A stretch of DNA of 64,000 nucleotides from an uncultured Candidatus Saccharibacteria bacterium. Lineage in GTDB: Bacteria > Patescibacteriota > Saccharimonadia > Saccharimonadales > Saccharimonadaceae. Location: contig CALLZM010000006.1 of assembly GCA_937858705.1 (NCBI GenBank), forward strand, positions 62,001-126,000. The letters are read 5' to 3'. A program made the position numbers and the translations under genes. Under the pieces are notes generated by a model. That model worked only from the letters and a program-made list of their open reading frames with translations, was not told where the DNA came from and ran no database searches. Position 1 is the stretch's first letter; each line of letters opens with the position of its first letter. This document shows, piece after piece, positions 1,881-54,782 of this stretch.

Positions 1881-4265
1881 CTATCGCTTGATACGAAAAC
1901 TCCAAGCTATCAGTCCCACCGCTCCTACTGCCAAGAATGAGCCGAAAATCATTACGCTCAAAAGGCTGGAACCAGTAGCTGCAAGGGTATCTGTTTGGGC
2001 ACTTGCTGAATTCGCAAGCACACCGATAAAAATTGGATCGACAATAATGCCGTTCGCCGATCCATCCTCATCTAGCGCCCCTCCATCAACTAATGTATAG
2101 GATATGATTGTTTTATTGTGTTGATTGGCTATGGTCACCTGGTTCGTGATATCAACTGCGTTCACACCATTGCTTGTCGTCTTGTAAACACGAAGATTTT
2201 GAGTAGCGAACTGCGAGGCAAGAGTGAGAGTAACAGTGGTCTCTCCTCCATTTTCCGTACAATTCACACTAAAGCTAACTCCGCCCAATATATCAACACC
2301 TGCTGGCTCAATAATCTTATTCGACCCGAGAGTGGTAATGCTCGAAGCAGATAGCTCATGACAATTTGGAGATGCAACACTCAAGCTAGCGTTTGCGATA
2401 GATGTATCTATGCTGGTAGTGGCTTTATTATTCTCTGGAATAGTACTGAGAGGTACAATAGTAGTAGTAATAGCATCTTCAGTAAGGCTACCCTTGTAAA
2501 TAGACCCATCCTGAGCTACTATCAATGCTCCTCTGCCGTCAGCTAAACTAGTTATGCCTCTAAAACCTTGTCCAACAGCATCAACCCCTTCGCCCCATGT
2601 TATTCCGAAATCAGTACTAGTAAATATGTACCCTGTTTCATCCGTAGCCATCACCGTTGCGCCATCGGCAGATATGGTTATTGCCTGCCATGGGTTACTA
2701 GATTCCCTTATGGCAGCGTCCTGTTCAGTCCAAGTTGTGCCGGCATTACCGCTGGTTACAATAGATGTTTCGTAAGTATTTACATTCCTCACCACTGCCG
2801 CCAGTTTAGTTCCATCCGCAGAACTGGCGATAGATATCCATTCATAATTTTCGAAGCCACTTTGCTGATGCCAAGTAGCTCCGGAGTCGGTACTGGTGTA
2901 TATAACATATTCACCATCGTCGTCACTCCCCCCTAGCACGAGTCTTACGCCATCGCCAGAGCTAGCGATGGTGCTCCAAGAATGATCCGTAGGAACTGTA
3001 TATTCACTCCAAGCAGCACCTGAATCGGTACTACTATAGACAGTTGTGTCTGTCACGAACATCAGTTTTGTACCATCGGCAGAGCTAGCCAGAGAGCGGA
3101 CTGCTTCTGTGGCAGTCAATCGCCAAGTCCAGGTGGTGCCAGAGTCAGTACTGGTGTAGATAGAGTTGCTCGCCATCGCAGCGAGCTTCACGCCATCGGC
3201 AGAACTGGCAATCAGCCACCAAGATGGAATAACCGGTACTGTCTGCTTAGTCCATGTTGTACCTGAGTTAACACTAGTAAAGATAGAATTACCGTCCACT
3301 GCAGCCGTCAATTTCGTACCATCGGCGGAGCTAGTAACCAGTATAGTTGCATAATTCTCATGCGTAAAACTCTCGACCCAAGTGACACCAGAGTCGGTGC
3401 TGGTGTAGATAGAAGAGGTATCGGTACCAATATCGAGTGTCGCCGCTACAAGCTTCGTTCCGTCAGATGAGCCAGCCATAGCCTGTATCGAGTGGCCTAG
3501 CGCGGACTGTGCGGTCCAAGTGGTGCCGGAGTCGACACTGGTGTAAATAGATCCGCCCTGGGTCGCAGCCACCAGTTTAGTGCCATCGGCAGAGCTAATG
3601 ATTGATCGCCACTGTTGACTACCGAGAGAGTTTCGCTCGGTCCATGTCACACCAGAGTCAGCGCTAGTGTAGATGAAGCCGCTAGAGTTAGTGGCTGCCA
3701 GCTTAGTACCATTCGCAGAGCTAGCAACGGACCGCCATAGCCGGCTACCAGCAGAAGATCGCTCCGTCCAGGTAGCTCCAGAATCGGTACTGGTGTAGAT
3801 ATACCTACCCCAATCCGCAGCCACCAGTTTTGCGCCATCAGCAGAACTGGCAACTGACTGCCATGACCGAATACCGGCAGAGACTCGTTCAATCCATGTC
3901 TCGCCAAAGTCACTACTGGTGTAGATAAGCCCGCCCTGGGTCGCAGCCACCAGTTTTGCGCCATCAGCAGAACTGGCAGCAGCCGTCCAACCTTTGTTTC
4001 CGAGAGTAGTATGTTCGGTCCAGGTAGCTCCAGAATCGGTACTGGTATACAGAAAACCATACAGCGTTCCTGCCACTATGACCGTCCCGTCATCAGAGCT
4101 GGCAATCGAATACCACGGCATAGGACTGCCTGGCACACGAACCTCTGGTAGAGGCGACCATTGCCATTGCCCGCCCGCAGCAGTAGCCATGTGACTAAAG
4201 AAGCTAAGCACTATCGCTAAAGACATCAATACAACTGCACCTCTTTTCAGATATCTATTCAGCAC
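1881..4265 (-). CDS. Secreted Asp-box (BNR) repeat surface protein with LAATG sorting signal
   Basis: This 794-residue protein has an N-terminal signal peptide (RGAVVLMSLAIVLSFF...) followed by about twelve repeats of roughly 41-45 residues. Each repeat carries an Asp-box of the form YTSTDSGATW and a conserved ASSADGTKL strand, which predicts a beta-propeller. A Ser/Thr-rich region follows. The C-terminus is a classic sorting signal: LAATG at about residue 761, a hydrophobic helix and a basic RIKR tail. The sortase gene converges 14 bp away. The start is GTG at 4265, preceded by GGGAGAAGGTC. Asp-box propellers occur in sialidases and Ycf48-like proteins, but no sialidase catalytic residues were identified, so binding or adhesion is the likelier role. 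Confidence 0.85.
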   Translation of the reverse strand: MLNRYLKRGAVVLMSLAIVLSFFSHMATAAGGQWQWSPLPEVRVPGSPMPWYSIASSDDGTVIVAGTLYGFLYTSTDSGATWTEHTTLGNKGWTAAASSADGAKLVAATQGGLIYTSSDFGETWIERVSAGIRSWQSVASSADGAKLVAADWGRYIYTSTDSGATWTERSSAGSRLWRSVASSANGTKLAATNSSGFIYTSADSGVTWTERNSLGSQQWRSIISSADGTKLVAATQGGSIYTSVDSGTTWTAQSALGHSIQAMAGSSDGTKLVAATLDIGTDTSSIYTSTDSGVTWVESFTHENYATILVTSSADGTKLTAAVDGNSIFTSVNSGTTWTKQTVPVIPSWWLIASSADGVKLAAMASNSIYTSTDSGTTWTWRLTATEAVRSLASSADGTKLMFVTDTTVYSSTDSGAAWSEYTVPTDHSWSTIASSGDGVRLVLGGSDDDGEYVIYTSTDSGATWHQQSGFENYEWISIASSADGTKLAAVVRNVNTYETSIVTSGNAGTTWTEQDAAIRESSNPWQAITISADGATVMATDETGYIFTSTDFGITWGEGVDAVGQGFRGITSLADGRGALIVAQDGSIYKGSLTEDAITTTIVPLSTIPENNKATTSIDTSIANASLSVASPNCHELSASSITTLGSNKIIEPAGVDILGGVSFSVNCTENGGETTVTLTLASQFATQNLRVYKTTSNGVNAVDITNQVTIANQHNKTIISYTLVDGGALDEDGSANGIIVDPIFIGVLANSASAQTDTLAATGSSLLSVMIFGSFLAVGAVGLIAWSFRIKR

Positions 4266-10469: not shown

Positions 10470-11446
10470 CTACCCCTGTTGCGCCTCTGACTGCTCTACT
10501 AAATACCACGGCAGATCGCGTCGTAAGCGCCGCGGGAGCACTTGCGCACTATAGCCCGACGCATTGGCAGGAGTAATATCACGCGATATCTTGCGCGCAA
10601 GACTCGGTGCTACCGTGACGCCATTCGGGTACACACGATGGCCAAGAAAATGAATACCTGAAGCCGCCTTCACGACACTATTGTTTGTGGAATGCACTTC
10701 CAGAAAAAGCTTGCGCGCCAAAAACTCCGCACACTGCCGCCCCATGCTACTCACTTGCTGTCTCGACGCTCCAAATAGCACAAAATCATCACCATAGCGT
10801 ACGAAGCCATACGGCCGCACCTCGTGCCGCACAAAGCGGTCGAACTCATTCAGATAAATGTTTGCAAACAACTGACTAGTCAGATTGCCTATCGGCATAC
10901 CAATATGTCTACCCCCCCCCCCCCATGTGACGAATAGCTCGACAATACTTGGTCAATCAGTCACAAAGCCGCCGTGTCCATCACTCGCCGCGCCAAGGCC
11001 TCGCGTAGCACCGCCTGATCTACACAATCAAAAAACTTGCGCACATCCGCCCGATATACCCAGCCACTCGCATAGCGCCCAGCAAGCGCTCGCGTGCGCC
11101 GAAGCGCACCATAAAGCCCCTTGCTAGGTCGGCATGACCACACATCGGGGTCAAACTGTGGTTCAAAAAGTGGCAGTAAGTAGTCATAGAGAAGCCGGTG
11201 CACCACTCTGTCACGCACTACCGCAACGCGAATATCTCGTCGTTTCTTCTCGTTGACAATTTTATGATCGTAAGAGCCATGACGGTACTCTCCCGTGTTC
11301 AGGTCATATGCCAGACGCAATAGCTCTATTTCGAGATTCCCTTCAAACACTGCTATCGCTTGGCTTGGCTTTTTTCTTCGTCGAAATGCGCGCCATGCAC
11401 GCCATATATTTGTTACACTAGTGTCTATGGAAGAATTATCTGTCAT
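10470..11446 (-). pseudogene. DGR reverse transcriptase, interrupted by a TGA and a G13 frameshift
   Basis: This is the reverse transcriptase of a diversity-generating retroelement. It copies the TR RNA with errors at adenines and the cDNA replaces VR. The N-terminal part (10961-11446) has YRADVRKFFDCVD, the first metal-binding motif. The C-terminal part (10470-10898) has GMPIGNLTSQLFANIYL and the catalytic YGDD in FVRYGDDFVLFG. Two lesions separate them. A TGA at 10961-10963 interrupts DTAAL-x-LIDQVL, and a G13 run (coding strand) at 10912-10924 shifts the frame. With 11 or 14 G the reading would join SSYSSHGGG to RHIGMPIG. Repaired, the protein is about 325 residues, normal for DGR RTs. It is either a recent pseudogene or switched off in this isolate. 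Confidence 0.85.
10912..10924. repeat. C13/G13 homopolymer in the RT gene
   Basis: This is the longest homopolymer of C or G in the window. On the RT coding strand it is G13, directly upstream of the GMPIGNLTSQ motif. The present length is out of frame, and lengths 11 and 14 would be in frame. Confidence 0.9.
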
Positions 11447-29853: not shown

Positions 29854-32718
29854 TTACAGTGTTGCCGCAGAGACAGATTTTTTCTTCTTCGTCACGCTAT
29901 CGTGTAGCTGCACCATTACCTCAACTCTATCTTCCGGCTCATCACCACCAATCATCAGTGGTCGACCCTTACCTGCCAACGCCTTTAGTACTTGCGGTTT
30001 GCCGATGATGTATGGATGACCTTTACTGTAAGTAATGTCAACAGGATCTGCCAGGCCTTCTATGTGTAGTTCATCAGGGGTAAGATACATCAATTTCAAT
30101 CGGTTTTCGTCAGTTAAATAGGTGCTGATCTCAATTTTTTTACTATACATCCATTTACCCAGATGCATATCGACTAAATGTGCGTCGCGATAGACACTGG
30201 TAGCCCTTCTTACTTCCGCTTTGATCATTTGTTCGGTAATGAATTGTGGACAATCTCGTCGTATATAATTTCGAAGCCTAGCATCGGGCACTCGATTTCT
30301 ATACAACAATAACTCATTTGCTACTTCTCGTAGTGCCTTAAGGCTTGCCCCAGGCTTCTTCATGATCTCCTCGAATAATTTTTGCTGGCTCGCTCTTGGT
30401 ATACAATCTTTTGGTAACACCAATTTTCTATCCCCAACCATAATGCCACCAAATTTCTTCTGAGCAGTTTCAACCACTCGCCCCTCCTGATATACCGATT
30501 CAACGGCGGTCAACTCGCCAAGTCCATACTGCCTAGCGTATTCTGCGACAACTTCCGGTCTCGCCTTGACTCCCCATATCAATACCGGCACTATTTCACC
30601 TGTACGGTCGACCGTAAAATCTCGAGGCGAACCAAAAATAAGTGGTACTTTTTTCGGATCAACCATACTTGTCCGCCCAATAACTCTTTTCGTAGCCAGC
30701 TCGTTACCAAGAATATTTTGATAATAGGGCACTTTTCTTTCTGTCACAGTTTGACGAAATAGCAGATCGAGCATACCAGCCGTCATGTCATCTCGCAACT
30801 CATCATACTCATCGGGGGTTGCTGGTCCAAGATTGATGTGATGCGGATTGATCCCCAAAACACGCATAATTTTCCTCGCAACCTTCAGCGATCGTTCTAT
30901 TCGTAGCTCGCTCAAATCATAATTACGAATATGATACCTTCGATCAAGCTCATCTTTTGGCAAACCCACCAACAACTTTAGCTGCGCCTCTAGGTCATCT
31001 GTCGCACCATCATTCTTGAATAAATCTGTCCAAGCGGTCTTGCCTGGCAATCGACTTTGTATGCCACCAGTGTCGAGTGCGGCAGCAGCTATTGCCATTC
31101 TGGCAAGCTGGTGCATATTTCGTTGCTTATGAAATGCTTCCACAACGCCTCGAGAAAGCTCAGGCCGAAGTGGTATACGGTTCATCATCATCCCGATATC
31201 GGTGATCTCGTGGTGTTCGTTCAGCGCGCCTATCCTCGATAGCATGCTCTTGGCGTTGCTCACCGGAGAAGCCGACACTCTTGTCGGTAGCCATTCTAGT
31301 ATATCGTTGAAATCTTTACCCAGCGCGGCGACTGAAAGCGCAAGTTGCGACAAGTTAGAGTGCAGTATTTCTGGTGGTCCAAACGGTTCACGATCATCCA
31401 GTCCTTTAAAATCTTCATATACCCTGCCCTCTATATTTTTGGGCTTTTGAGTTGCCACGGGCAGAGCAAGTACTCCCACTCCACCACCAACATCGCGACC
31501 AGCTCGACCCATTTGTTGTATAATTTCAGCCACCGATAGCAGTTCTCTTGGCAGCCCTTCAGCCGTATCATCATTCAGCGTTTGGCGGTTAATCGTTCCA
31601 TCAGTGACTACTAGAGTCGTTCCAGGGAAAGTTCTCCCCGACATAGCCGCTGGCGTGGCGACTATCACCGCGCGCTTGCCTGGCAGAATAGGGTCATTCA
31701 CGCGATCCTGCTCAAACTTCGTCATATCACCATGAAATTCATAAAATACCACGCGGCTCGGGTCTTGACCGGATTTTCTTAACAATTTCCTCGTCTCGTC
31801 GATAATATGCTCAATTTGCTTCTTGCCCGATGTGAAAATAATCGTCTTCTGATGCTCCGCACCGATATCGGCATACACTTCCATCGGTGTTTGAGTAGGC
31901 GCTTCCCGCACCTCATTCGTAAAAGGCCGCCCCTCGATAGTCAGCACCTCCAGCTTGCCATTATTCACTCTCCGCAACACACCATCAAGGTCATCGATAT
32001 TGTGCGTTGCGCTTATCGCAGCTAAACGCCACTTATCAAGCTCATCGACACTTTTCGCAGCTACCGCAAACGCAACATCTGTGAATAGGTTCGCCTCATG
32101 TATTTCATCGGCCAAAATAACGACTTCTTCATCAGCATATTTCTCCTGAATCTCATTCGCTCGCAACAAATAAGTGTTCGAGGTCATGATTTCAATCACG
32201 CAATCATCTGGCAGCTCAGTCCTGTCGCCATGAGTAATGCCAACAAGAGCGCTTGCTTTTTCCTCACCCTCAATTTCAGCCAGCTCGGAAATCAGCCGCT
32301 CATACAGCCCATCGGCAATATTTTTCCGCGGCACCAATATAAAGATTTTCTTAAATGGCTTATCTTTCTTTTCGCCATTAAAAGAAACTCGTCCAACATC
32401 GAGCAAAAACTGTGGTATTTGAGTGCTCTTACCGCTCCCTGTTTCACCCCCCAATGCTAACGCTTTGTTGTGCTTAAAAGCGTCAATGATATCCAGTTTA
32501 TACCGAAAAGCTGGCAACTCTCTATTGCCATAGCCATTCAGCTCAGCGTGCTGTCTCGCTATCTTTTCACGATATAACTTTTGCAGTGATGTACGATGAT
32601 TATCGTGCTGCGCGGGCTTTTGCGCCCCCCCCCACTGCTCACCTTTACCTAAAGAAGCTGGAGTTGCCCTAACTCCTCGTTGATTGTTGAAACCGCCGAA
32701 CTTCTCTTTTCGCATCAT
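29854..32718 (-). CDS. DEAH-box RNA helicase, HrpA-like, with C9 tract near its start
   Basis: The 954-residue protein has Walker A GETGSGKST, DEIHEANLFTD (a DEIH box), SATHNIDD motif III and QMGRAGRD motif VI, followed by the winged-helix/ratchet region of DEAH helicases. HrpA-type enzymes rescue stalled ribosomes or remodel mRNA. The tract at 32635-32643 reads G9 on the coding strand within EQWGGAQKP and is in frame here. Two ATG codons occur in tandem at 32718 and 32715, and a GTG at 32730 could extend the protein. A TTGATA-TACTAT promoter lies upstream. Confidence 0.92.
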   Translation of the reverse strand: MMRKEKFGGFNNQRGVRATPASLGKGEQWGGAQKPAQHDNHRTSLQKLYREKIARQHAELNGYGNRELPAFRYKLDIIDAFKHNKALALGGETGSGKSTQIPQFLLDVGRVSFNGEKKDKPFKKIFILVPRKNIADGLYERLISELAEIEGEEKASALVGITHGDRTELPDDCVIEIMTSNTYLLRANEIQEKYADEEVVILADEIHEANLFTDVAFAVAAKSVDELDKWRLAAISATHNIDDLDGVLRRVNNGKLEVLTIEGRPFTNEVREAPTQTPMEVYADIGAEHQKTIIFTSGKKQIEHIIDETRKLLRKSGQDPSRVVFYEFHGDMTKFEQDRVNDPILPGKRAVIVATPAAMSGRTFPGTTLVVTDGTINRQTLNDDTAEGLPRELLSVAEIIQQMGRAGRDVGGGVGVLALPVATQKPKNIEGRVYEDFKGLDDREPFGPPEILHSNLSQLALSVAALGKDFNDILEWLPTRVSASPVSNAKSMLSRIGALNEHHEITDIGMMMNRIPLRPELSRGVVEAFHKQRNMHQLARMAIAAAALDTGGIQSRLPGKTAWTDLFKNDGATDDLEAQLKLLVGLPKDELDRRYHIRNYDLSELRIERSLKVARKIMRVLGINPHHINLGPATPDEYDELRDDMTAGMLDLLFRQTVTERKVPYYQNILGNELATKRVIGRTSMVDPKKVPLIFGSPRDFTVDRTGEIVPVLIWGVKARPEVVAEYARQYGLGELTAVESVYQEGRVVETAQKKFGGIMVGDRKLVLPKDCIPRASQQKLFEEIMKKPGASLKALREVANELLLYRNRVPDARLRNYIRRDCPQFITEQMIKAEVRRATSVYRDAHLVDMHLGKWMYSKKIEISTYLTDENRLKLMYLTPDELHIEGLADPVDITYSKGHPYIIGKPQVLKALAGKGRPLMIGGDEPEDRVEVMVQLHDSVTKKKKSVSAATL
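32635..32643. repeat. C9/G9 tract in helicase gene
   Basis: Nine C on the plus strand, 75 nt after the helicase start. The present length keeps the long reading frame open. Confidence 0.75.
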
Positions 32719-49583: not shown

Positions 49584-50402
49584 TTAGGCAGCGACGAGTT
49601 TTTCTCTATATTCCCTGTATTCGCTTAGTGTACTGTAGTATGGTTCTTCAAGAATAAAATCCATACCACTTGCTTCAATGTAAGGAATGAGAAAATGTGT
49701 TGCAATCTCAGCATCAAATATACGCCCTGAGCTAGTGCCAAGAAAATTCTCACGGACAAGCGATCCCACTAAGCTCGATAGATCTTTTGCACACCCTATT
49801 TTAAAATCAGAACCATCAAGATCCTGATGATAACTGGCACTCTCGAGGTCAAAAGTAATAATATCTCCCTTTGGTACGGTACCGATATTTTTTAGCTTAA
49901 AATCACCGTGGACCACACCATGCGCATGAAGCCGCCCAGCGTATTCGGCGATACCACCCAAGAGAGGTGTTAATTCATCCAGATATGCTTCGTCGCCCGC
50001 ATAATATTTTTCCCAGCCTACTGCAGTCATAAGTGCCAGCGAAGGTACTTTTTCAGTAGCAATAATTTTACCCGCTACACCATCAACAGCGATCGGCTTT
50101 TCCGTCATGGGCACCACTGAATTGAAGCCTAACCCCTTCGTAAGCGACAACATATCAAGCTCATTTGCCGCTTTTTCGGACAAAAAATGCCTTTTGACAG
50201 CATATGCCCTACCGGCTGCTCTCCCCTTGGTCGCTTTTACAAAAAATACTCCGTGAGCACTATCCGATGCCCCAAACCGATCGATATCGCTAATAGCCAG
50301 TTCACCACCGATAACTTTCGTCAATTCCCTGGCAATCAACTCCATCTCTGGAAGCGACAATTGTTCGGGCTGGCTTCTGCCATCAAGGAATACTTCTCCC
50401 AT
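49584..50402 (-). CDS. Protein-kinase-fold phosphotransferase
   Basis: The 272-residue protein shows a kinase-like layout: AYAVKRHFL with the ATP-site Lys, a catalytic loop RLHAHGVVHGDFKLKNIG (HGD...N) and ITFDLES supplying the metal Asp in place of DFG. It resembles RIO/Kdo-kinase/aminoglycoside-kinase-like enzymes and no exact family is claimed. I chose ATG at 50402. A TTG at 50426 lies inside the upstream poly-G run. The preceding gene ends at 50410, so the pair is coupled and overlaps if TTG is used. Confidence 0.7.
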   Translation of the reverse strand: MGEVFLDGRSQPEQLSLPEMELIARELTKVIGGELAISDIDRFGASDSAHGVFFVKATKGRAAGRAYAVKRHFLSEKAANELDMLSLTKGLGFNSVVPMTEKPIAVDGVAGKIIATEKVPSLALMTAVGWEKYYAGDEAYLDELTPLLGGIAEYAGRLHAHGVVHGDFKLKNIGTVPKGDIITFDLESASYHQDLDGSDFKIGCAKDLSSLVGSLVRENFLGTSSGRIFDAEIATHFLIPYIEASGMDFILEEPYYSTLSEYREYREKLVAA

Positions 50403-50409
50403 TGATGAA

Positions 50410-50994
50410 TTACTGCCCCCCCCCAATACGAATGACCGTACCGCCCATTTTTTTGCGTAGAGTAGCGAGTGCTTCGCTCAGTACGCCGATTTCCCCGTCA
50501 TCCGTTGCTTCTCGGCGCAATGCCTCAACACCTTCAGATATCAAGCGTTTCACTATAGATTCATGCGACTGTTCAGGGGCTTGCGCTATAGTATAAGGAG
50601 GCAATATCTCGATAGATTGGTGTTGTATATCGATAGCTAAACCTCTCATATCAAGAGGTTGCGGCAAAAACCCCGTCTTTGATGCAACCGTATGAAGATA
50701 TTCTTCTAAGAGCTGGAGTGCGGCGGCAAAATCTTGAAAATTACCACTACTGTTGTCTGAGTTAAAGAGGCCAGTGAAAGTAATGAGGTCTAGATTATCA
50801 GGATATTCATATTCAACACGACCGTTTTCTGGTGGATGAGCTATGCTCTTGGTCAATTGTTTCTTCGCAAGCACTTGATAGAATTCTGGCTGATCCAATT
50901 CTTCTGGTATCGAAATAACCCGTGCGTTATCGGTCTTAATTTCTTTCCACTCTCCGCTACCGAGGCGAAGTTGGTTTGGTAAACATGGCTTCAT
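50410..50994 (-). CDS. Hypothetical accessory protein ending in a G9 run
   Basis: The 194-residue protein is not recognised. It is mostly soluble with a strand-rich start (MKPCLPNQLRLGSGEWKEI) and a helical C-terminal third (SHESIVKRLISEGVEALRRE). It ends VIRIGGGQ, where the Gly codons are the poly-G run (50416-50424). At 8 or 11 G the frame would run into the kinase-like protein to make one fused polypeptide. TTGACT-17-TACTAT precedes it, 8 nt before ATG at 50994. Confidence 0.6.
   Translation of the reverse strand: MKPCLPNQLRLGSGEWKEIKTDNARVISIPEELDQPEFYQVLAKKQLTKSIAHPPENGRVEYEYPDNLDLITFTGLFNSDNSSGNFQDFAAALQLLEEYLHTVASKTGFLPQPLDMRGLAIDIQHQSIEILPPYTIAQAPEQSHESIVKRLISEGVEALRREATDDGEIGVLSEALATLRKKMGGTVIRIGGGQ
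50416..50424. repeat. C9/G9 tract at the junction of two genes
   Basis: The run spans the last codons of the 50410-50994 gene and the start region of the kinase-like gene. Its length sets whether the two products are separate or fused. Confidence 0.75.
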
Positions 50995-51002
50995 ATACTT
51001 AT

Positions 51003-51082
51003 ATAGTAGCACGAAAATTGATAAAAGTCAATGCATTCCTCCATACCCTTGAACATTTCTCCGAAAATGCTATAGTGTAAGT
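51003..51082. promoter_or_regulatory. Divergent leaderless promoters
   Basis: Minus: TTGACT (51026-51031), 17 bp, TACTAT (51003-51008), 8 nt before the ATG at 50994. Plus: TTGAAC (51049-51054), 16 bp, TATAGT (51071-51076), 6 nt before the ATG at 51083. Confidence 0.7.
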
Positions 51083-52109: not shown

Positions 52110-52628
52110 TCATATATTGTGTGTCCATCGAAATTTATCGAAATCAGTAGAGCCGCCTGCTACCGCTCGACAAAGTCGCGTCCCTATGTATTCCGAATCG
52201 GCATCGACATCGACATCTGTCAAAAATCGTTTTCCAGAAAAAATCGATGATACATACAAGATGCCTTCTGGGGTATCTTCTTTTACAGGGCCATAGCCAA
52301 TAAAGATATAATCACTAAAATCAAGCCGCGCACAATAAACAAATGTTTTGCCCCCGGTACCAGTCTCTCGTGTTTGCTCGTACAATCCTGTGTCTTTCAG
52401 TATCTGCGCCATATCGGTCATAGTACCGCTACTACTTGGGTATCTTCCGTTCTCTATATGAAATATTTCCAGGCGTTTCCCTACATGAGATAAATCAACT
52501 TTTAGCGATGCCACCATGGCCTTCGTCTGAATTGACCGATATGACACGATGCTGATAGCTGCAAGAATGGCAACCACTATAATAACAATAAGAAGCTCCA
52601 CAACCGTAAAACCATAAACCTTTTTCAC
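52110..52628 (-). CDS. Type IV pilin-like protein
   Basis: The 172-residue product has a class III signal peptide: short leader KKVYG, then FTVVELLIVIIVVAILAAISIVSYRSI, with the Glu at +5 that pilins use in assembly. The rest is a beta-rich pilin head with two Cys (FVYCARLD and GTRLCRAVAG) likely forming a disulphide. No other pilus gene is near. The start is GTG at 52628, 7 nt after TACACT. The promoter spacer holds a C10 run. Confidence 0.88.
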   Translation of the reverse strand: MKKVYGFTVVELLIVIIVVAILAAISIVSYRSIQTKAMVASLKVDLSHVGKRLEIFHIENGRYPSSSGTMTDMAQILKDTGLYEQTRETGTGGKTFVYCARLDFSDYIFIGYGPVKEDTPEGILYVSSIFSGKRFLTDVDVDADSEYIGTRLCRAVAGGSTDFDKFRWTHNI

Positions 52629-52635
52629 ACTTCAT

Positions 52636-52666
52636 AGTGTATCCCCCCCCCCAGCCATTTCGTCAA
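52636..52666 (-). promoter_or_regulatory. Pilin promoter with poly-G in the spacer
   Basis: TTGACG (52661-52666) and TACACT (52636-52641) are 19 bp apart on the minus strand. Ten bases of the spacer (52643-52652) are a single homopolymer. Loss of two would give the optimal 17 bp, so this tract can set promoter strength. Confidence 0.75.
52643..52652. repeat. C10/G10 tract in pilin promoter
   Basis: The run lies between -35 and -10 boxes, not in coding sequence. It is the only one of the window's homopolymers placed to act on transcription. Confidence 0.8.
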
Positions 52667-52718
52667 TGGATTTTTCGCTACAAAAACAAAAGAGCTTCGC
52701 AGAGAAACTCTAACAAAA

Positions 52719-52737
52719 TATAAGGATACTCCCTATA
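52719..52737 (-). repeat. REP-like element, left copy
   Basis: The imperfect palindrome TATAAGGATACTCCCTATA lies past the RAYT stop codon, inverted relative to the copy at 53401-53419. Confidence 0.75.
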
Positions 52738-52757
52738 CGGTGTTAGTTTTTACAAGT

Positions 52758-53363
52758 TTACAGTGCCAGCTGATTTTTCAGCAATTCCAGCTCAGCCCTA
52801 CGCCCCTCATACGAGCCAAGAAACTCGCGATACTGAGCAGGCGACATGTCGTGCACCCGCTCCGGATGCAGCCACACCGGCGCCTCACCACCCAAATACG
52901 CCGCAATACTTGACCACTCATAGCGCATATAGCTGCGCGGGTTCATGTGAATATAGCGCGTAATGTGAAGCAGATATGCATCATTGGTGATTCGCGACGC
53001 CTTAAACGCACTCTGAAACAAATGCCCGGACTGCTTGTATTTGCGGTTAAAGTACATCGTGTACGCAGTCGCAACCGAGCGCATGAGTTGTGTTATCGCT
53101 GTCGTGTCAGACTCCTGATAGAGCAATAAATGAAAATGATTCCCCATCAGACAGTATGCCACCAGCTCGATGTCATACTTCTCATACGCCCGCCCGTCAG
53201 TTCTAACCGAAGTGTCGTCCGGGTCAAGATGTCTGGCAAAGAGAGCGAGAAATTTATATCTGTCTTGGTCATCACGAAATATCTGCTGGCTTCCCGCGCC
53301 ACGATTATACACATGATAATACGCCGGAGCATCGTAGTACTTAACGGTGTTTTTAATAGGCAT
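52758..53363 (-). CDS. REP-associated tyrosine transposase (RAYT)
   Basis: RAYTs are single-copy relatives of IS200 transposases that mobilise REP palindromes. The 201-residue protein has YHVYNRGAG near the N-terminus, the HUH-type site in MGNHFHLLLYQ, the catalytic-region QLMRSVATAYTMYFNRKY and HLFQSAFKASRI, followed by YIHMNPRSY. The start is ATG at 53363. Inverted REP-like palindromes flank it on both sides. A third copy lies 1.4 kb away. Confidence 0.9.
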   Translation of the reverse strand: MPIKNTVKYYDAPAYYHVYNRGAGSQQIFRDDQDRYKFLALFARHLDPDDTSVRTDGRAYEKYDIELVAYCLMGNHFHLLLYQESDTTAITQLMRSVATAYTMYFNRKYKQSGHLFQSAFKASRITNDAYLLHITRYIHMNPRSYMRYEWSSIAAYLGGEAPVWLHPERVHDMSPAQYREFLGSYEGRRAELELLKNQLAL

Positions 53364-53373
53364 AGAGCCAGTG

Positions 53374-53421
53374 TAGCACAAGTTGTATATTTTTACACCT
53401 TATAGGGAGTATCCTTATACA
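53374..53421 (+). repeat. REP-like element, 48-bp unit, central copy
   Basis: This unit contains the palindrome TATAGGGAGTATCCTTATA at 53401-53419. It matches 54735-54782 with one mismatch (A to G) over 48 bp in the same orientation. Confidence 0.85.
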
Positions 53422-54734: not shown

Positions 54735-54782
54735 TAGCACAGGTTGTATATTTTTACACCTTATAGGGAGTATCCTTATACA
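54735..54782 (+). repeat. REP-like element, 48-bp unit, right copy
   Basis: Nearly identical to 53374-53421 (one mismatch). The palindrome occupies 54762-54780. Confidence 0.85.

Follow-up and report, generated by a model that had tools for sequence, protein, structure and literature searches.

In Neisseria, the promoters of porA, opc and fetA carry a poly-G or poly-C tract between the -35 and -10 elements that is thought to alter sigma-factor binding (PMC2791445). Treponema pallidum tp0126 has a poly-G tract in the same position, and its transcription is best at a spacing of 17 nt (PMC7864442). The fimbrial genes hifA/hifB of Haemophilus influenzae are switched by promoter spacer length, as the original study (Cell 1993;73:1187) is cited in PMC2791445. 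How Saccharibacteria choose, hold and change their bacterial hosts is an open question in which type IV pili are involved in Nanosynbacter lyticus TM7x, where T4P-2 has a part in host binding and T4P-1 in twitching (PMC12206443). When the text of that paper was searched for phase variation, homopolymers and slippage, none was mentioned, and no report of phase variation in Saccharibacteria was found in the literature searched, which excludes most subscription journals; the nearest Candidate Phyla Radiation paper describes a Gracilibacterium with a hypervariable coding repeat (PMC6851277). Here we analysed a 64,000-nt stretch (the window) of the genome of an uncultured Candidatus Saccharibacteria bacterium, in which a G10 homopolymer is placed between the recognisable -35 and -10 boxes of a pilin promoter (TTGACG-19-TACACT).

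Layout of the pilin promoter

All elements of the promoter lie on the minus strand. The -35 box TTGACG (52661-52666) matches TTGACA at five of six positions, and the -10 box TACACT (52636-52641) starts at -13 from the start codon. Between them is a 19-nt spacer, AAATGGCT-G10-A (52642-52660), whose ten Gs (52652-52643) are the predicted slippage site. A sequence-only reading of this DNA had proposed two boxes 19 bp apart at 52636-52666 with a 10-base homopolymer in the spacer, and its coordinates are right to the base. TACACT is followed by ATGAAGT (7 nt) and then by GTG at 52628, whose first base is the predicted transcription start, inferred on the assumption of a leaderless mRNA. The ATG that directly follows the -10 box is in a different frame from the pilin, and an in-frame TGA stands just before the GTG, so tract length is unable to alter the pilin reading frame. 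A simple consensus promoter scan did not list this promoter because the scan permits only 16-18-nt spacers, and RNA folding at the start of the gene was unremarkable (z -0.39).

The gene behind the promoter, which the same reading had taken to be a pilin, proves to encode an orphan type IV pilin-like protein of 172 aa (52110-52628, minus strand) with the prepilin motif MKKVYG/FTVVELL. The ORF matches Pfam N_methyl PF07963 (E 2.2e-5; 24.3 bits vs a cut-off of 21.2), and the prepilin peptidase motif G/F-x4-E and hydrophobic helix are both present (MKKVYG/FTVVELLIVIIVVAILAA); surface exposure of the product is inferred from its protein family. Four T2SSE matches (E down to 6e-131) indicate that the genome encodes pilus assembly ATPases, and no pilus assembly genes were recognised adjoining the pilin. 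A search for the same locus in relatives gave a single full-length relative of the pilin (G126, 47% identity), which has no G tract; on this comparison the tract is not conserved together with the pilin gene. A contig scan found no relatives of the pilin; its globular part diverges too fast.

Immediately upstream of the pilin is a Y1_Tnp (REP-associated/IS200-like transposase) gene (52758-53363, minus strand; identified by Pfam and sequence), flanked by inverted copies of TATAAGGATACTCCCTATA, the whole arrangement being at 52717-53421. A terminator-like hairpin with a T-rich tail, supported by a consensus scan only, lies between this gene and the pilin promoter (52691-52711, minus strand). A 48-bp stretch of its right flank, that of the transposase arrangement, is repeated at 54735-54782 with 98% identity.

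We evaluated the pilin spacing against the ordinary TTGACA...TATAMT promoters of this genome, in which the spacer is 17 nt in 9/25 and 18 nt in 12/25. It had been suggested that slippage by two bases would bring the spacer to an optimal 17 bp. That spacing is indeed in regular use, but it is not the sole optimum; since ordinary promoters have 17 or 18 bp, loss of one G could suffice. The position of the -10 box is also informative. Across 178 genes, TANNNT stands at -12 from the start codon in 27 and at -13 in 16, compared with about five at each other position, and only two of 54 leaderless-like starts have a Shine-Dalgarno motif. The pilin TACACT at -13 falls within this enriched leaderless class, and paralogous promoters have TATACT 6 or 7 nt ahead of an ATG. 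There are no 5' end data; from its sequence context, the pilin transcript is probably leaderless and starts at or beside the GTG. Given a -10 box at the leaderless position, the tract is expected to fall outside the transcript, on its upstream side, and to affect transcription only.

G-tract promoters in the genome

The genome is 0.91 Mb in 31 contigs. G/C runs in the window become steeply rarer with length and then reappear at lengths of 8-13. The count of runs >=8 is eight, where extrapolating the decay of shorter runs predicts 0.33 and first-order Markov simulations gave 0.64, with a maximum of 4 in 200. Genome-wide, GGGGGGGG occurs at 109 overlapping places, corresponding to some 40-45 tracts. 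Their surroundings were studied in a sample of about 229 kb, window included, made up of the stretches around most tracts and the pilin genes; this choice biases the share of starts with tracts and leaves positional offsets unbiased. For the 40 tracts of G>=8 with 80 nt of upstream sequence, TTGAC lies 7-9 nt upstream of the tract in 11, whereas all other offsets up to 74 give six matches together. On the other side, TANNNT follows the tract at offset 0 in 10 cases and at offset 3 (TGC-TANNNT) in four, and the pilin site at 52636 is the case at offset +1. The arrangement is not chance, and the pilin promoter belongs to a group of 11 or more promoters of similar build in this genome.

In the sampled stretches, 8/18 pilin-like starts have a tract promoter. 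Three of these read TTGACA-gactgctca-G10-TATACT-cgaaac-ATG, TTGACA-acctcgcca-G9-TATACT-cgaaat-ATG and TTGACA-gaatctct-G12-TATACT-cgaagag-ATG; in one pilin the tract appears as C10 straight after TTGACA and is followed by TGGAAG-TAAAAT. Tract promoters also precede three collagen-repeat proteins (Pfam Collagen, E 8e-13 to 3e-25; for example TTGACA-tccccgcca-G10-TATACT) that share the N-terminal start MPRLPxPGKDxGQWGxILNDYLS, and in a fourth collagen-like gene the tract is interrupted by an A with the 19-bp spacing unchanged. Further targets are proteins with an N-terminal membrane segment, one of which has a borderline Fib_succ_major domain. Two contig breaks fall on other tract promoters; the contig ends overlap by 55 nt and carry tracts of equal length on both sides, which is uninformative on variation.

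Some sites depart from this layout. L070 holds two decayed versions that are possibly locked promoters, namely TTGACA-attcgcca-GGGGTAGGGA-TATGCT before a pilin (1640-1694) and TTGACA-tccccgcta-GGAGGGGGGG-TATACT before a collagen-like gene (3018-3047). At L073:2401-2414 (minus strand), TTGACG-aatcggct-G14 is joined directly to collagen-like coding-type sequence, as though the tract were the endpoint of a deletion.

Other tracts could act as coding switches. A G13 tract (10912-10924, minus strand) stands just before an ORF resembling the central portion of a reverse transcriptase (MPIGNLTSQLFANIYLNEF...YGDDFVLF), the probable front part of which is an ORF in another frame (10961-11446), making this a possible frame-switched reverse transcriptase gene. 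A G9 tract (50407-50426, minus strand) marks the junction of the overlapping ORFs 50410-51012 and 49584-50426, which a one- or two-G change could fuse into a protein of about 480 aa. Another G9 tract (32625-32633, minus strand), near codon 33 of a 958-aa ORF, is a frame-switching candidate, and a G10 at L084:2562-2571, at codon 22 of a 204-aa ORF in an apparent lipoprotein signal peptide with LTLNAC further on, is a candidate translational switch.

Tract promoters in relatives and lack of mismatch repair

The pattern TTGAC-N6..14-G8-TANNNT gave 111 matches in 44 of the 295 genomes of the family; the reversed pattern gave two. With the gap widened to 0-30 and G>=9 required, there were 109 distinct sites with spacers of 9-35, 92% of them within 13-21, and peaks at 18 (25 sites), 19 (28) and 15 (17). 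Neither the 111-match nor the 109-site count includes the pilin site, which the strict pattern misses because of the one A between its tract and -10 box; TACACT serves as the -10 box in 7/109 of these promoters. A wide-gap pattern requiring exactly eight Gs found nine sites, 8/9 having spacers of 15-18. Across the family promoters, tracts range from 8 to 19 and prefixes are mostly 1 to 10 nt. Compensation between prefix and tract length was expected and not found (Spearman -0.10, P 0.28). Paralogous promoters within one genome differ by a single G in two genomes (G12/G13 in G036, G10/G9 in G262). We also considered whether sites in G304 and G036 were one locus split over two contigs with differing tract lengths; their flanks differ and they are paralogues. 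Separately, 3,294 bp containing a collagen-like gene and its G10 promoter are 99.97% identical between L077 (G000:C16) and L240 (G164:C14), from genomes filed in different genera, reflecting either recent transfer or a misbinned contig.

Downstream genes at the 28 readable family loci mostly encode proteins that have a signal or a membrane segment; some of the genes encode pilins, and some products lack a signal. Among the matches listed in a contig scan, a similar layout occurs in Clostridia, Bacilli, Selenomonadaceae, Streptobacillus, Helicobacter and others, so Saccharibacteria are not alone in having this design.

MutS is absent in 294/295 family genomes, this one included, and MutL is absent in this genome; searches for both were positive in 11/14 control genomes. 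With both proteins missing, strands that slip should escape repair. Instability is to be expected of a perfect homopolymer where mismatch repair is lacking.

Discussion

We consider it likely that the pilin promoter, with its slippery G10 spacer, undergoes spacer-length phase variation, slippage at this locus and its effect on transcription both being inferred. Unrepaired replication slippage at G10 would cause the tract to gain or lose one or more Gs, shifting the 19-bp spacer toward or away from the 17-18 bp that the genome ordinarily uses. Loss of one or two Gs would yield an 18- or 17-bp spacer, and such a change would raise or lower pilin transcription in individual cells, the tract acting through the binding of RNA polymerase, without an effect on translation. 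The proposal of a promoter with a variable homopolymeric spacer before the pilin, already made in the sequence-only reading, gains support from the same layout at many surface-protein genes in the genome and the family, from the one-G differences between paralogues and from the absence of MutS and MutL, with switching itself remaining an inference. Whether 19 bp corresponds to an OFF, weak or ON state cannot be told from sequence. It may be a spacing at which the promoter works rather than an OFF state, as 19 bp is the commonest tract spacer of the family and is kept by the A-interrupted copy.

Those last observations are also what a poly-G spacer of near-constant length would predict, were it a fixed structural element (stiff A-like DNA suiting 18-19 bp, or a regulator site): spacers of 18 and 19 dominate (53/109), and the interrupted copy retains 19 bp. 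We regard this as unlikely, because promoters differ in tract length (8 to 19) and in prefix length (mostly 1 to 10 nt), because paralogous promoters with identical boxes are found one G apart, and because, given the lack of MutS and general knowledge of homopolymers, a perfect tract would not be expected to stay constant. An effect on translation, through a variable Shine-Dalgarno sequence or a variable distance to the start codon, is more difficult still to sustain and seems very improbable. G-runs are able to pair with the anti-Shine-Dalgarno, and the tract ends 14 nt before the GTG and 7 nt before the out-of-frame ATG; yet a -10 box lies between tract and start codon at the genome's leaderless position, Shine-Dalgarno motifs are nearly missing from leaderless-like starts (2/54), and in several genes tract and -10 box remain side by side although the tract is 40-100 nt upstream of the start.

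Two further explanations would deny the tracts any role. Two-colour Illumina chemistry produces false poly-G, and this metagenome bin is in 31 contigs, some of which break on tracts. A sequencing or assembly artefact is nonetheless hardly credible for internal tracts whose flanks on either side are correct and whose boxes are near-consensus, and which in 44 genomes are aligned with -35 and -10 boxes, the reversed control giving almost nothing. The tracts might instead be real but neutral by-products of slippage without mismatch repair, as the near family-wide lack of MutS and the many tracts of this genome that are intragenic or in odd places would allow. That they have no selected role is very doubtful, however, when many MutS-less relatives, including both same-genus genomes, lack such tracts and when those present are concentrated in surface-protein promoters. 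Spacer-length phase variation of the pilin promoter remains our preferred reading.

A broader proposal, which we put forward tentatively and stop just short of favouring, is that some Saccharibacteria, as ultrasmall episymbionts that lack mismatch repair, have a genome-wide phase-variable surface, in which at least ten independently slipping G-tract promoters of pilin, collagen-like and anchored-protein genes would present cell-specific combinations toward the host. A role for this pilin in contact with the host bacterium is inferred. A stochastic, heritable switch acting on pilins and collagen-like proteins would let attachment vary from cell to cell, in a way open to testing. If true, a surface of this kind would add a new case to the ways in which members of the Candidate Phyla Radiation diversify their contact with hosts, and both host range and escape from host resistance could rest on it. 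For genome assemblers, such tracts should be treated as variable sites and not as errors.

The arrangement had initially been equated with phase-variable promoters of both Neisseria and Haemophilus. The first comparison holds for porA, opc and fetA, which likewise have a homopolymer between the -35 and -10 boxes of a surface-protein gene; the second is more distant, as hifA/hifB have dinucleotide TA repeats in overlapping divergent promoters. They have no G tract and specify chaperone-usher fimbriae, whereas the Saccharibacterium site combines a G tract with a type IV pilin, and tp0126 is also a closer counterpart. In Neisseria, porA, opc and fetA have one such promoter each, for porins or receptors; here a set of promoters is found in one small genome, several of them predicted to be leaderless, with pilins and collagen-like proteins as targets and with genes unrelated in sequence to those of Neisseria. 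Treponema pallidum tp0126/tpr resemble our case both in the poly-G between -35 and -10 and in having several such surface-protein genes per genome (PMC7864442), but these encode spirochaete outer-membrane proteins and the effect was measured in reporters, whereas in the Saccharibacterium it is inferred only. TM7x belongs to the same bacterial group and has the same kind of pilin, although the pilin described here is an orphan outside any known locus. The present system differs from the Neisseria and Treponema precedents in its scale within one small genome, its predicted leaderless layout and its targets.
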